Source: Deltaproteobacteria bacterium
Lineage (GTDB): Bacteria > Bdellovibrionota_B > Oligoflexia > Oligoflexales > Bog-1112
NCBI GenBank assembly: GCA_016186945.1
Contig: JACPKR010000005.1
Coordinates: 1 to 61,157, forward strand
Length of the DNA stretch: 61,157 nt
Direction: 5' to 3'
Shown: piece after piece, positions 308 through 51,696 of the stretch
Layout of the letters: every line of letters starts with the position of its first letter
Numbering within the stretch: position 1 is the first letter of the stretch
Program-made: the position numbers and the translations under genes
Notes under the pieces: generated by a model
What the model was told of the DNA's origin: nothing
Seen by the model: only the letters and a program-made list of their open reading frames with translations
Databases searched by the model: none

Positions 308-913
308 ATGCAGAAACACGTAACCCGTAGGCTGTTTGTGGCAAAGCGTCGCCTCCCCTGGATTTCTTGGAGGAACCAGCTGCGCAGTTTCCTCCAAACC
401 ACATCCTTGCCACAATCCCTCCAAACCACCTCCTTGCCACAAGCGGCGATCATCTTCCTTGTGGTGTGCTGCTGTCCACTGGCAGCACAAGCTTACCAAT
501 CCAAATGGCAAGTGAAAGGAGGAGTGAGTGCCTTCTTTTTCGGCACGGTCATGCCTCCTCAGGGTCTTCTCCTCGCAGGTTATCAATGGGATTTCGATAC
601 ATTCTTCCACGAAGTCAATATAGGCGGGTGGAGGGGCAATCGTGGGACAGATATAGCATACTGGCAAGTTGCTGGAGTTCAACCCTTACCCAAGGGAAGC
701 ATGAGTTTCGGAGCTGGGCTTGGTTGGATATCCCACGATGAAACGTCTGCTTTGGGAAGTCGTTGGCAATTCATCCTGGATATTCGCTATCGTTGGCAAG
801 ATCTCCCCTATTACTTTGGCATGAGCCATATATCAAATGGGGAGTTGTTTTTTCATCACGCCTATCTTCCGAACGTGGGTGAAAATTTCTTCGTTTTTGG
901 ATACGAGTTTTAG
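308..913 (+). CDS. PagL-like lipid A 3-O-deacylase (outer membrane)
   Basis: The C-terminal half looks like the PagL acyloxyacyl hydrolase family, outer-membrane beta-barrels that remove the 3-O acyl chain of lipid A. The C-terminal block has H174-I-S176-N-G, the His-x-Ser of the PagL catalytic pair, then P-N-x-G-E192-N and a final aromatic residue (F201), as in barrel proteins. A signal peptide is visible around residues 46-62 (hydrophobic run ending A-A-Q-A). The first about 45 residues of the longest frame are encoded by an R1 repeat (positions 320-441). The real start may therefore be the TTG at 434, directly before the signal peptide, or the ATG at 308 if the repeat is translated. The last 4 bases overlap the end of the convergent topA. 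The function is inferred from motifs only. Confidence 0.6.
320..441 (+). repeat. R1 repeat, copy a (partial second half duplicated)
   Basis: It begins with a variant terminal repeat (GTAACCCGTAGGCTGTTTGT then GGCAAA) and contains the R1 hairpin GGAGGAA, CTGCGCAG, TTCCTCC. The tail AAACCACATCCTTGCCACA is followed by a second short copy of the tail. It lies within the long open frame of the PagL-like gene. Confidence 0.8.
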
Positions 914-14731: not shown

Positions 14732-14896
14732 ATAGTATTTGAGAAAAAGAATTTGTGGAGAGGACCTTTTTTGAAAAAAAGTTCCTCTCCACGCCTCCCC
14801 CCAAAAAACTTTAAATACTGAAGTTTTTGAAAAGGGGCTTGGGGAAATAACTTTTTTCAAAAAGTTTTTCCCCAAATTGATTGTCTTGAATACTAT
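14732..14896. repeat. R2 element, copy C (full length, 165 bp)
   Basis: The ends read T-ATAGTATTTGAGAAAAAGA and TTGTCTTGAATACTAT-A, imperfect terminal inverted repeats flanked by TA. About 50 bp at each end can pair, giving one large imperfect hairpin. A typical MITE layout; no open reading frame. Confidence 0.9.
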
Positions 14897-14898
14897 AA

Positions 14899-14932
14899 TA
14901 ACCGTCTGGTGAAAACCAAGGCGGTTTTTTTT
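14899..14932 (+). terminator. Rho-independent terminator
   Basis: AACCGTCTGG, then a TGAAAA loop, then CCAAGGCGGTT is followed by a run of T. The stem is imperfect, and the T-tract lies on the plus strand, so it ends transcription from the integrase-repeat gene side before the convergent hemN. Confidence 0.75.
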
Positions 14933-19827: not shown

Positions 19828-19994
19828 ATAGTATTTAGGAAAAAAGAATTTGTGGAGAGGACCTTTTTTGAAAAAAAGTTCCCCTCCACGCCTCCCCCCA
19901 AAAAACTTTAGATATTGAAGTTTTTGAAAAGGGGCTTGGGGAAATAACTTTTTTCAAAAAGTTTGTCCCCAAATTGATTATCTTGAACACTATA
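19828..19994. repeat. R2 element, copy D (full length)
   Basis: ATAGTATTTAGGAAAAAAGA at the left and TTGATTATCTTGAACACTAT at the right, TA-flanked. The middle contains GGACC, the T-rich and A-rich arms, and CCCCTCCACGCCTCCCCCCA. It fills most of the gap between the M23 and SCO1 genes. Confidence 0.92.
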
Positions 19995-20053
19995 GTTGTC
20001 GGCACTTACGATTTTTTATTTAGGAGTGGAATAGGATTCTTTTGTCTGCCAAT

Positions 20054-20663: not shown

Positions 20664-22448
20664 CTAAAAATAGGGGACCTGTTCAATTTGTCCTGTCCCC
20701 GTTTTCGAGGGCATGATCGTATAATTTTTAAACTCCTTGCGCAACAGGGCTGCGCGCACTCTAAAAAAAAGCGGGAGAGAGGGAAGCTCGGCGGCATATT
20801 TTATTTGAAGAGAAGCATGGAGTTTCTTCCTTTTGTCGAAAGGCAGCGTTGTATCCAGTTGGGAGATAAGGTTATCCACCTCGGTGTCATTCCAAGCGCT
20901 TGTGTTGAGGCCACTATAGCTATTTCTCACGGACGGGATGGCAGAGGAGTGGAACGTTTCGCGCATGGATTGATAGGGGCTGAGGTGCCAAGCGTAAAGA
21001 GCCATACCGGGGAACTGGCGCTTTCCTACCGCGTCTCGAAATCGGTTCAAGGGCAGGAGTACAACGGAAACTTTCACGCCAAGTTCGCCCCACGTCTTTG
21101 CCAGGTAGTGGGCGAAGGATTCACGGAGCTTGTCTTGGATCGTCCACAATTCAAATGTGAGTTTACGGCCGTTTTTTTCCCTGATGCCATCCTGCCCTGG
21201 TACCCAGTGGGAGGCTGACAGTAAGGTTCGAGCCTTGGGCAGGGAAAATTCATAGAAGGCGGCATTTTCATCAAAATAGGGGCTTTGCGGATGGCAAAAG
21301 GACAAGGCGGGAATGGCCCACTCTTCAAGGATTTGGGAAATCAACACATCCTTGTCAATTGCAAAAGCAAGGGCACGTCTAACTTGCACGTCTCGAAAGA
21401 CAGGGTTTTGTAAATTGAAGTCTATGTGTTCGAAGAATTGAGTCTCTCCTACTGTAATGTCGTGCTGTATGTCTTTTGAAGTTTCCAAAGATCGGAAGAA
21501 CTCCAGGTTGTCATCCCAAACGACATGGGAGGGGATGAGATCAAACCCGCCCAAAAGGGACTTACTCAAAAACGGAGCAGAGCTGGGAAACATGTGTACG
21601 TCGATCTGTTGAAAGGGAAAGGGGCTGCGTCCATGCTCATTGGCAGACAGCGTAAGTGTTTTGCTTGCATGTCTGAGGGAGTAGGGGCCGTTGTAAAGAC
21701 CGGGAAGAGTTGGGTCAGTGACAAAAAAGCTCTGGGTGAGGTAAGAATGCCAGGAGTTTGCCTTATCCCAGAGAACCTTTTCCAGGTGCCGAGGGACAAG
21801 GAATAGTTCTGTGACATTCCGAAGAGGTTCACCGCTTACGTTCATCATAATCTTAAAGGTGCGTTTGTCTTCGACGACAATATCCTCGATAGCATCAGGA
21901 AAGCGTGAGGGCCTGTTTTCCTTGCGAGCTTGCCTGGCAAGGTCCCATGTCAAGAGAAGGTCATCGGTAGTAACGGGAGTGCCATCGTCCCAGAAGGAGT
22001 TCGGGGAAAGGTTGAAGCTAAGCTCGAGGGCTTCACTGTCTCCCTTCTCGACGATCTTAAGTCGTTTATTTGCAAGTGAAGGAACTTCAGAGCAAAGACC
22101 GCACTTCCACTGCCATTTTGCGTTGAGGAACAGAAGGGGTGTGTGGAGGAGATCGTCAACGAAGGAGGCAGCTTCTTCCTTTTCCTGGAGAGGGTGAGAA
22201 GCTTGAAAGGTGCCCTGAAGGCCAATCGTCAGGGAGCGACTTTGTCCAAGCGAAGATATGGCTATCAGACAGATTAAGCCACTCAGGGCAAGGAGGTGGT
22301 TTGGAGGAACCTGCGCAGCTCGTTCCTCCAAGAAATTCCTGGGGAGCGACCCTTCGCTTTGCTCAGGGCAGGCTTTTCCCTCGCCCCTCCAAACCCCCGT
22401 CTCCCTATTTGCCCCAAGTGGCTTACGCATTATAGGAAACGATTTCAT
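20664..22448 (-). CDS. Extracellular solute-binding protein (family 5, peptide type) with R1-encoded N-terminus
   Basis: This is an SBP_bac_5 protein of the OppA/DppA/NikA kind: A-F-A-I-D-K-D-V-L-I, a long two-lobed layout and a C-terminal A-A-E-L-P-S-L-P-L-F-F-R. The ATG at 22448 overlaps the lptG stop by 4 bases (ATGA), which strongly supports this start. After seven codons (M-K-S-F-P-I-M) the frame enters an R1 element, reads through it for about 51 codons (including G-E-G-K-A-C-P-E-Q-S-E-G), and leaves into a hydrophobic signal segment (S-G-L-I-C-L-I-A-I-S-S-L-G-Q-S). No ATG, GTG or TTG is available between the repeat and that segment. No permease genes are adjacent. Confidence 0.88.
   Translation of the reverse strand: MKSFPIMRKPLGANRETGVWRGEGKACPEQSEGSLPRNFLEERAAQVPPNHLLALSGLICLIAISSLGQSRSLTIGLQGTFQASHPLQEKEEAASFVDDLLHTPLLFLNAKWQWKCGLCSEVPSLANKRLKIVEKGDSEALELSFNLSPNSFWDDGTPVTTDDLLLTWDLARQARKENRPSRFPDAIEDIVVEDKRTFKIMMNVSGEPLRNVTELFLVPRHLEKVLWDKANSWHSYLTQSFFVTDPTLPGLYNGPYSLRHASKTLTLSANEHGRSPFPFQQIDVHMFPSSAPFLSKSLLGGFDLIPSHVVWDDNLEFFRSLETSKDIQHDITVGETQFFEHIDFNLQNPVFRDVQVRRALAFAIDKDVLISQILEEWAIPALSFCHPQSPYFDENAAFYEFSLPKARTLLSASHWVPGQDGIREKNGRKLTFELWTIQDKLRESFAHYLAKTWGELGVKVSVVLLPLNRFRDAVGKRQFPGMALYAWHLSPYQSMRETFHSSAIPSVRNSYSGLNTSAWNDTEVDNLISQLDTTLPFDKRKKLHASLQIKYAAELPSLPLFFRVRAALLRKEFKNYTIMPSKTGTGQIEQVPYF
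22275..22426 (-). repeat. R1 element, copy f (full length, inside a reading frame)
   Basis: This reverse-orientation R1 has ends TAAGCCACTCAGGGCAAGG and TTGCCCCAAGTGGCTTAC, the same inner hairpin (with TCG in place of TGG) and the GAGCGACCCTTCGCTTTGCT insert seen in copy e. It lies wholly within the first 60 codons of the solute-binding protein, with the frame open throughout. Confidence 0.95.
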
Positions 22449-23539
22449 GATTGCTCACGGTGAAGGCCACGAAGTTGCCATGCGACGACTGCTGCTAGCC
22501 AGAAGTTCGCCAGCCAACCTGAGAAAAACGGGTGAAGGTGACCCATGCTGCTAAGTGCTTTACATATGCTGAGAAGGAACCAATAGCTAATTCCAATTGT
22601 AAATGCAATGAGAAGGCTTTTGATTGTTTCTGTCGTACGCTCATGCCGGTATCCGAAGGACAAGCCCAAAAGGCTGATCAGCAAGGCGGCGAGGTGATAG
22701 GCGAGTTTCATGTGCCAGGAAATGCGGTAGTCAAGAACATCAACGCCTGATCGGATTCCGGAGCGAATGAGCTGGGAAATTTCAACTAGGCTCATTTCCA
22801 GGGGGATACGCCTTTCCACTGTAAGTTTCTGTGGCTCGATAGGAAGAGCGAGGCTAAGTTCTTCCAGCTTTTCGACCTTTTCGATCTGTTTGTTGGGATC
22901 GAAGTCAAGAATCTTGACTTCTTTAAGCTTCCAGAGTTTCTGATCGGGAAGGTACTGGGCAAAGCGTGCGTAGGTTGTTTTTGCCGGGGCAAATTGCTCC
23001 GTGAGATCGACAAGCTTAACCCCCTCGAGAGTTCCTGTCTCCTTGTGGAAGGTCTGGAAATTCACAGCCTGGCGTTCCGATCGGACCCAGTGAGCCTCAT
23101 TGCTTAGCCCGATATCTTTCTCCCCTTCAATGAGAACTTGGGTGATATAGCGCGTACGACGAGCAGAGTAGGGGACAACGAATTCCGCGATCCCGTAAGA
23201 GAAAAGGCTCAATGTCAGGCCACCGAGAGCAAGGGGAAGTCCGACTTGCGTAGGACTCATTCCCGCAGCCCTCATTGCGGTAACTTCACCACTCCGGTTT
23301 AACAGGACCATGACGATGACAGATGCGATAAGGGAAGCGATGGGAAGCGCTTGGAAAGTCTCGAAGGGAACCTGTAGTAAATAGTAGCGAAAGACCAGGC
23401 CGGGGTCGGGATTGTAACGATTAAAATATGTCGTAGTTTTGTGGATAAAGTCGAAGAGGATGAACAGAAAAAGGCTTAAGCACAGCGTTGTTGCTGCGAA
23501 TTTATAGTATTCTCTTAAAACATAGCGAAAAAGGATCAT
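22445..23539 (-). CDS. lptG: LPS export ABC permease (LptG/LptF family)
   Basis: This is an inner-membrane component of the Lpt machine that moves LPS to the outer membrane. The 364 residues show three N-terminal helices with the coupling region R-S-G-E-V-T-A-M-R-A-A-G-M-S, a periplasmic beta-jellyroll domain in the middle, and three C-terminal helices. The N-terminal L-F-R-Y-V-L-R-E-Y is typical. LptG is preferred over LptF mainly on length and the single-gene context. It is first in the operon with the solute-binding protein and SCO1. Confidence 0.9.
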   Translation of the reverse strand: MILFRYVLREYYKFAATTLCLSLFLFILFDFIHKTTTYFNRYNPDPGLVFRYYLLQVPFETFQALPIASLIASVIVMVLLNRSGEVTAMRAAGMSPTQVGLPLALGGLTLSLFSYGIAEFVVPYSARRTRYITQVLIEGEKDIGLSNEAHWVRSERQAVNFQTFHKETGTLEGVKLVDLTEQFAPAKTTYARFAQYLPDQKLWKLKEVKILDFDPNKQIEKVEKLEELSLALPIEPQKLTVERRIPLEMSLVEISQLIRSGIRSGVDVLDYRISWHMKLAYHLAALLISLLGLSFGYRHERTTETIKSLLIAFTIGISYWFLLSICKALSSMGHLHPFFSGWLANFWLAAVVAWQLRGLHREQS

Positions 23540-36139: not shown

Positions 36140-36304
36140 ATAGTATTTGGGAAAAAGAATTTGTGGAGAGGACCTTTTTTGAAAAAAGGTTCCCCTCCAC
36201 GCCTCCCCCCAAAAAACTTTAAATACTGAAGTTTTTGAAAAGGGGGTTGGGGAAATAACTTTTTTCAAAAAGTTTGTCCCCAAATTGATTATCTTGAACA
36301 CTAT
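36140..36304. repeat. R2 element, copy E (full length, 165 bp)
   Basis: ATAGTATTTGGGAAAAAGAA at the left, TTGATTATCTTGAACACTAT at the right, TA-flanked. It occupies the gap between the post-rpsD stem-loop and the DnaC-like gene. Confidence 0.93.
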
Positions 36305-36336
36305 ATTACATCCTTTGCAAAGTGGGTTGAGAAACT

Positions 36337-39790: not shown

Positions 39791-39816
39791 AGTTGGCTCC
39801 CGCGGTCAAGCCGCGG
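39791..39816 (+). repeat. Palindromic repeat P, right half (copy 2)
   Basis: AGTTGGCTCCCGCGGTCAAG, then CCGCGG, matches the second half of P copy 1. The left arm is absent. It leads directly into the 24-bp tandem repeat, whose first unit reuses the P end GATGAC. Confidence 0.8.
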
Positions 39817-39910
39817 GATGACGTAGAGAGATTGACCGGGGATGACGTAGAGAGATTGACCGGGGATGACGTAGAGAGATTGACCGGGGATGACGTAGAG
39901 AGATTGACCC
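39817..39910 (+). repeat. Tandem repeat, four 24-bp units
   Basis: The unit is GATGACGTAGAGAGATTGAC then CGGG, exactly repeated at 39817, 39841 and 39865, with a fourth copy at 39889 cut after ATTGACC by R3. Since 24 bases equal 8 codons, every frame would give an octapeptide repeat. It probably grew by slippage from the P end. Confidence 0.95.
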
Positions 39911-40096
39911 AGGGCCTGTTCATATGAATAAAGGTTAAGAGAATTTCCGTCATTGCGAGCGAATGCGAAGCAATCCAGGCTGAAATTTACCCACCATGTA
40001 AGCGCCGCGGCAGACAACCTGGATTGCTTCGTCGGGCTTCGCCCTTCTCGCAATGACGTTATTTTTTCTCATTCCATTCTCATATGAACATACCCT
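39911..40096. repeat. R3 palindromic element, copy 2 (complete, nested)
   Basis: The terminal inverted repeats are AGGGCCTGTTCATATGA (left) and TCATATGAACATACCCT (right). Inside is the CGTCATTGCGAGC ... CTCGCAATGACG inverted repeat as in copy 1. It interrupts the P / 24-bp tandem block, whose sequence resumes on both sides. Confidence 0.92.
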
Positions 40097-51474: not shown

Positions 51475-51696
51475 ATGCTTCGAAGCAGGAACCTAATGTT
51501 CCTCTTAACTTCTGTGGTATTCAAGGTAATCAATTTTGGGAAAAACTTTTTGAAAAAAGTTATTTCCCCAAGCCCCTTTTCAAAAACTTCAATATCTAAA
51601 GTTTTTTGGGGGGAGGCGTGGAGGGGAACTTTTTTTCAAAAAAGGTCCTCTCCACAAATTCTTTTTCATATTATAGTACGTTATTTTTCTTTTTGA
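51475..51696 (+). pseudogene. Stranded N-terminal signal sequence upstream of the Cys-repeat lipoprotein
   Basis: A very good ribosome site (AGGAGGGG) precedes an ATG at 51475. It is followed by M-L-R-S-R-N-L-M-F-L-L-T-S-V-V-F, which looks like the start of a signal peptide. The frame then enters R2 copy F and stops at 51694-51696. The lipoprotein frame downstream is in a different phase. I infer that R2 insertion split the original gene start; a short independent ORF is the alternative. Confidence 0.4.
51513..51677 (-). repeat. R2 element, copy F (reverse, more diverged)
   Basis: Reverse-orientation R2 with a degenerate right end (GTGGTATTCAAGGTAATCAA) and left end (AAATTCTTTTTCATATTATA). 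The middle reads GTTTTTTGGGGGGAGGCGTG. It overlaps the N-terminal coding region of the Cys-repeat lipoprotein. Confidence 0.85.

Follow-up and report, generated by a model that had tools for sequence, protein, structure and literature searches.

A MITE open in frame through the predicted signal peptide of a solute-binding protein gene in a deltaproteobacterium

The window, the whole 61,157-nucleotide stretch analysed here (Deltaproteobacteria bacterium, assembly GCA_016186945.1, contig JACPKR010000005.1), carries two adjoining genes on its reverse strand. The upstream gene, lptG (22445..23539), belongs to the LptF_LptG family (Pfam E 7.6e-63), and its TGA stop codon overlaps the start of the second gene as ATGA. 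The second gene (20664..22448) encodes a family-5 extracellular solute-binding protein (SBP) of 594 residues, with the repeat R1 at its N-terminus. Residues 138-492 match Pfam SBP_bac_5 (E 1.4e-37), and the mature part of the protein is matched by solved oligopeptide-binding proteins (PDB 2d5w, 1b05 and others). The congener G001 has the same lptG-SBP neighbours with the same ATGA overlap. The SBP start at ATG 22448, which the initial annotation had set by its 4-base overlap with lptG, is well supported because the overlap and the neighbours are both kept in G001.

The R1 copy (22275..22432, reverse strand) encodes residues 7-58. It is of the long form, measures 158 bp and aligns to positions 2-161 of the 169-bp consensus with 94.4% identity; it differs from the consensus by seven substitutions and one internal 2-nt deletion. 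The copy had been described as a complete R1 of 152 bp. It is indeed near-complete; it starts 5 bases upstream of the left edge drawn earlier, the right terminal repeat lacks its final 8 bp, and there is no target-site duplication. The SBP frame runs without a stop through R1 into a hydrophobic core, as had been stated. The comparison with an orthologue proposed at that stage yields an R1-free gene in G001, with the N-terminus MSKARISIAALAMSLVCVFFLTAVGFAGDELRIGV, reading MSKARISIAALAMSLVCVFFLTAVGFA. Misassembly is judged unlikely: the two genes that flank R1, lptG and SBP, adjoin directly in G001, and the window copy carries private variants.

R1 exists in two forms of 146 bp and 169 bp (consensus from the fetched copies), with long terminal inverted repeats, GTAATGCGTAAGCCACTTGGGGCAA at both ends. 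The 2.66-Mb genome contains 221 terminal repeats and 390 central hairpin cores, an abundance that is not due to chance, since reversed control patterns give 0. When 94 copies of at least 110 bp were examined, exact target duplications of 8-10 bp were found around 29 of 43 two-ended copies. Copies missing one or both ends are flanked by a duplication in 1 case of 51, though several of them match the consensus at 100% identity. Many R1 insertions seem to have come with a truncation on one side and no duplication. By its sequence R1 is a non-autonomous MITE, because it has inverted ends and target duplications in the two-ended copies; it is short, is without a transposase gene and is present in many copies. 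No autonomous relative was seen at the two pairs of closely spaced R1 ends that were examined (C16 and C23), which enclose ordinary host genes and no transposase. Seven copies (L066, L074, L076, L082, L100, L111 and L123) are 100% identical to the consensus, 3-8 bp short at one end and free of target duplications.

A search of the 42 further genomes in the order did not find the full R1. Two genomes of the same family contain a 46-bp R1 hairpin core alone, in many copies and with no R1 ends. Among the genomes searched, R1 is specific to this one. The core copies are represented by L202 and L203 (G005 and G007), and in G007 they often form inverted pairs some 250-470 bp apart. The window also holds a second interspersed repeat, unrelated to R1, of about 155-169 bp and 90-96% identity (14732-14901, 19829-19998, 36140-36309 and 51512-51667), and, at 39799-39931, a 24-bp tandem repeat (GGATGACGTAGAGAGATTGACCGG) adjoining the palindrome CCCGCGGTCAAGCCGCGGGATGAC.

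A two-ended short R1 with its duplication (146+8 or 146+9) is never in frame, and a long R1 with an 8-bp duplication can be (169+8=177). Five of the seven substitutions in the window copy, and the deletion, are absent from all other R1 copies fetched (the private variants include CAGGTT and CCCTGAG), and for this reason the variants probably postdate the insertion. The deletion, at 22340..22341, changes CCCCCAAGGG to CCCCAGGA and brings the end of the repeat into the frame HLLALSGL; the ATG frame then reads ...NHLLALSGL/ICLIAISSLG, where the slash marks the junction. Without the deletion the same frame, read from the sequence, would end in GCT TAA at the junction. Another private change, CTG (Leu55) for consensus CCA (Pro) at 22284..22286, lies in the hydrophobic core. 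The deletion and the Pro-to-Leu change are consistent with selection for a working signal peptide, with the caveat that a single indel restores the frame by chance in one case of three.

The 1,602 bp of the SBP gene downstream of R1 contain no stop and no frameshift, and their coding score is the highest in the survey. In a neutral simulation limited to substitutions, 1,602 bp stays open with P 0.19 at 3% and 0.087 at 4.5%. The chance of no indel is 4e-5 if indels arise at the rate of the element, a rate that represents one event in a homopolymer. The SBP gene was probably functional and under selection after the insertion, because R1 gained private mutations while the 1.6-kb gene stayed intact. 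The same observation, together with the coding score and the matches of the mature domain to Pfam and PDB entries, makes it quite improbable that the insertion broke SBP export and left an early pseudogene still open by chance, even though part of the native signal peptide seems to have given way to R1 and the genome has further family-5 solute-binding genes elsewhere, so that a loss could be tolerated.

The hydrophobic core of the predicted signal peptide (LLALSGLICLIAISSL, 22248..22295, reverse strand) takes its first 7 residues from the repeat, the end of R1 encoding LLALSGL, the first half of the core. The mean hydropathy of this best 16-mer is 2.48, versus 2.66 in G001. Joining the host-encoded parts only (MKSFPI + CLIAISSLGQ) gives a best value of just 1.14, and R1 therefore forms part of the core and does not simply lie ahead of it. 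R1 appears to take the place of part of the native n-region and early hydrophobic core, supplying half of the core; from an alignment at 38% identity, the loss at insertion would be about nine host codons. Some 51 repeat-encoded residues had been placed in front of the signal sequence. The repeat-encoded stretch is borne out, at 52 codons (M7-L58), but it does not lie only in front, for LLALSGL is within the core.

The n-region comprises 51 residues with a net charge of +2 (+3 at the extreme N-terminus). The 20 residues preceding the core have a net charge of about -1, which is poor for a signal peptide. A possible cleavage site is SLG before Q69. A long n-region with a 16-residue core can serve as a signal anchor. 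If the segment were uncleaved, R1 would have made the SBP a membrane-anchored protein with a 51-residue cytoplasmic tail, and the low positive charge beside the core would suit such an arrangement. We give this little probability, as a plausible SLG/Q site follows the core and a cysteine in the lipobox position is kept after the core in two other R1-bearing proteins described below (L110 and L178), suggesting processing there.

Possible starts within R1 bear on how much of the repeat would be translated. No start codon had been recognized between the repeat and the hydrophobic segment. This is correct for the host part, which has no ATG, GTG or TTG; two in-frame codons within R1 had been missed, namely its own ATG (22428..22430, residue M7) and a TTG (22329..22331, residue 40), both on the reverse strand. 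A fold of -83.8 kcal/mol (z -5.0) is predicted for the first 180 nt of the RNA. Its stem encloses the TTG and leaves the two ATGs (22448 and 22430) just outside, ATG 22448 being unpaired. It is unlikely that translation begins at TTG 22331 (MEERAAQVPPNHLLALSGLICLIAISSLG...), so that about 19 repeat residues would precede or begin the core and the upstream ATG would be unused for the SBP. The codon is in frame, has AGGA 5 nt upstream, and would give a signal peptide of normal length for which the 2-nt deletion is not needed. Against this, ATG 22448 is unpaired whereas the TTG is buried in a stem predicted at about -84 kcal/mol, G001 retains the ATGA overlap with lptG, and a frame-setting deletion upstream of the TTG would be pointless.

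Such a very stable predicted stem in the coding region could lower SBP expression. R1 might then act mainly at the RNA level, its hairpin in the lptG-SBP mRNA being a site of processing or attenuation that lowers SBP relative to lptG. The energy and z-score of the predicted stem favour this role, and a similar one has been reported for the NEMIS of Neisseria (PMC2229807); we consider it somewhat unlikely as the main role, and it would be compatible with translation through R1.

R1 was surveyed in stretches around part of all its copies, and 120 elements of at least 60 bp were included. There are 49 element-ORF pairs with coding signal, and most of the elements lie just 5' of a gene having its own start. 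In four cases, the window SBP, L110, L126 and L178, R1 runs into the core of a signal peptide. L110 is a LEA_2 lipoprotein, in which GGAGGAGAAGGTA is followed by the ATG of R1 and the repeat exits as NHLLAPSGL into IKLLPVILFTSSILGC; its relative in G001 reads MRRPLRSILLCTLLPFMTGGC. L126 is FlgA, encoded behind flgG, in which the frame from the R1 ATG exits as NHLLAPS into TLVFLLLSIRAWG; one in-frame GTG three codons beyond R1 is an alternative start. L178 is a lipoprotein beginning VLKKTRRG, followed by R1 in reversed orientation and by ISPLILPLLLLFTLAPAGC; its relatives have a GTG or TTG start at a similar place. In both L110 and L178 a cysteine occupies the lipobox position directly after the core. 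The orthologues or relatives checked for the R1-bearing exported proteins, those of L110 and L178 included, are without R1. The orientation and exit frame of R1 are the same in three of the four cases, and all four copies have lost 8 to 15 bp at the end that faces the signal core.

Elsewhere R1 extends the reading frames of C-termini, in HemA (L130, 1018-1164), alanine racemase (L074, 982-1124), Maf (L123, 966-1104) and a methyltransferase (L062, 265-403). An interior in-frame insertion in a mature domain was found in none of the 120 elements examined. By a rough estimate, n-regions amount to ~9 kb and intergenic DNA to ~400 kb, so that ~2 of 94 copies would be expected in n-regions at intergenic-like tolerance. 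Four are compatible with this expectation, and targeting to signal peptides need therefore not be invoked; tolerance is enough. Near one end of the window, an ORF at 308-910 (forward strand) has an R1-like fragment (341-415, with variant ends GTAACCCGTAGGCTGTTTGTGGCAAAG) between ATG CAG AAA CAC and a signal core. This is a candidate fifth signal-peptide case. It has no Pfam match and no match in seven relatives; we take it to resemble a PagL-type outer-membrane protein (HISNG).

A more speculative proposal, which we regard as decidedly unlikely, is that R1 is a start module. At each end, 4 nt from the tip and outside the stem, is an ATG with a stop-free frame beginning MRK. An element landing after a ribosome-binding site would capture that site and would supply a start, a basic n-region and part of a core, so that a single step would repair insertions at gene starts; L110, L126 and L075 are candidates. 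As a general trait of R1, capture of a Shine-Dalgarno (SD) sequence was rejected: an SD-like motif precedes 15 of 114 R1 ATGs versus 6-9 in control windows, which is too weak. At L075, R1 (971-1107) separates the start of an exonuclease III-like gene from an SD-like AGAAGGAAAAA; the R1 ATG is in frame with this gene, whose product may be longer by about 46 residues.

From the anatomy of the DNA, the open frame, the recurrence and the R1-free orthologues, we infer with a probability of about 0.7 that R1 entered a live SBP gene and is translated from ATG 22448 within a cleaved signal peptide, the mature protein being unchanged. R1 would have inserted between the first six SBP codons and the hydrophobic core of a Sec signal peptide, with its own final 8 bp lost and probably a few host codons as well. 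The product would be a signal peptide with an unusually long n-region of about 51 residues and a core to which repeat and host each contribute half. Translation from ATG 22448 would be coupled to that of lptG, and signal peptidase would cut off the whole repeat-encoded part, releasing an unchanged mature SBP. Because the repeat-encoded part would be cleaved away, the site would tolerate R1, and R1 would recur in the signal peptides of other exported proteins.

The type of event is already known. The Rickettsia palindromic elements (RPE; Ogata 2000, 2002), as described in PMC10969869 and PMC2229807, are short and palindromic, occur in many copies both between genes and in frame in protein genes, and in the first report lay within ORFs in nearly half of the cases; for one product, guanylate kinase, both translation and activity were shown. 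The similarity in principle to RPE proposed by the initial annotation is supported: compared by description, R1 resembles RPE in its in-frame insertion in protein genes (the four signal-peptide and four C-terminal cases above). By the same accounts it differs in two ways: the R1 copies found in genes are confined to signal peptides and gene ends, with none of 120 elements in a mature domain, and R1 has clear 8-10 bp target duplications.

In YPAL/RU-2 of Yersinia, a MITE reading frame contributes to predicted signal peptides, as R1 does, and in YPO1552 it provides residues 1-30 of a 41-residue signal (Delihas 2007, PMC2759123). YPAL/RU-2 was proposed to create new exported proteins, whereas the exported proteins that contain R1 have relatives with ordinary signal peptides, and R1 occurs in such proteins repeatedly in one genome. 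The Correia/NEMIS elements of Neisseria are small MITEs that have terminal inverted repeats and form a strong RNA stem, and those of one size class are open and fused to ORFs (PMC2229807); R1, compared by description, shares the small size, the inverted ends and a strong predicted stem. What appears to be new, in the literature searched, is the family itself (R1), the organism it inhabits and its recurrence in exported proteins that have ordinary relatives.

At genes that bear R1, start-codon calls and signal-peptide predictions can go wrong, and their results there should be read with this in mind. The genome offers several natural cases for probing what length and what degree of foreign sequence an n-region can bear. 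The findings point to cleaved signal peptides as a refuge in which mobile elements can be translated while the mature protein is left untouched.
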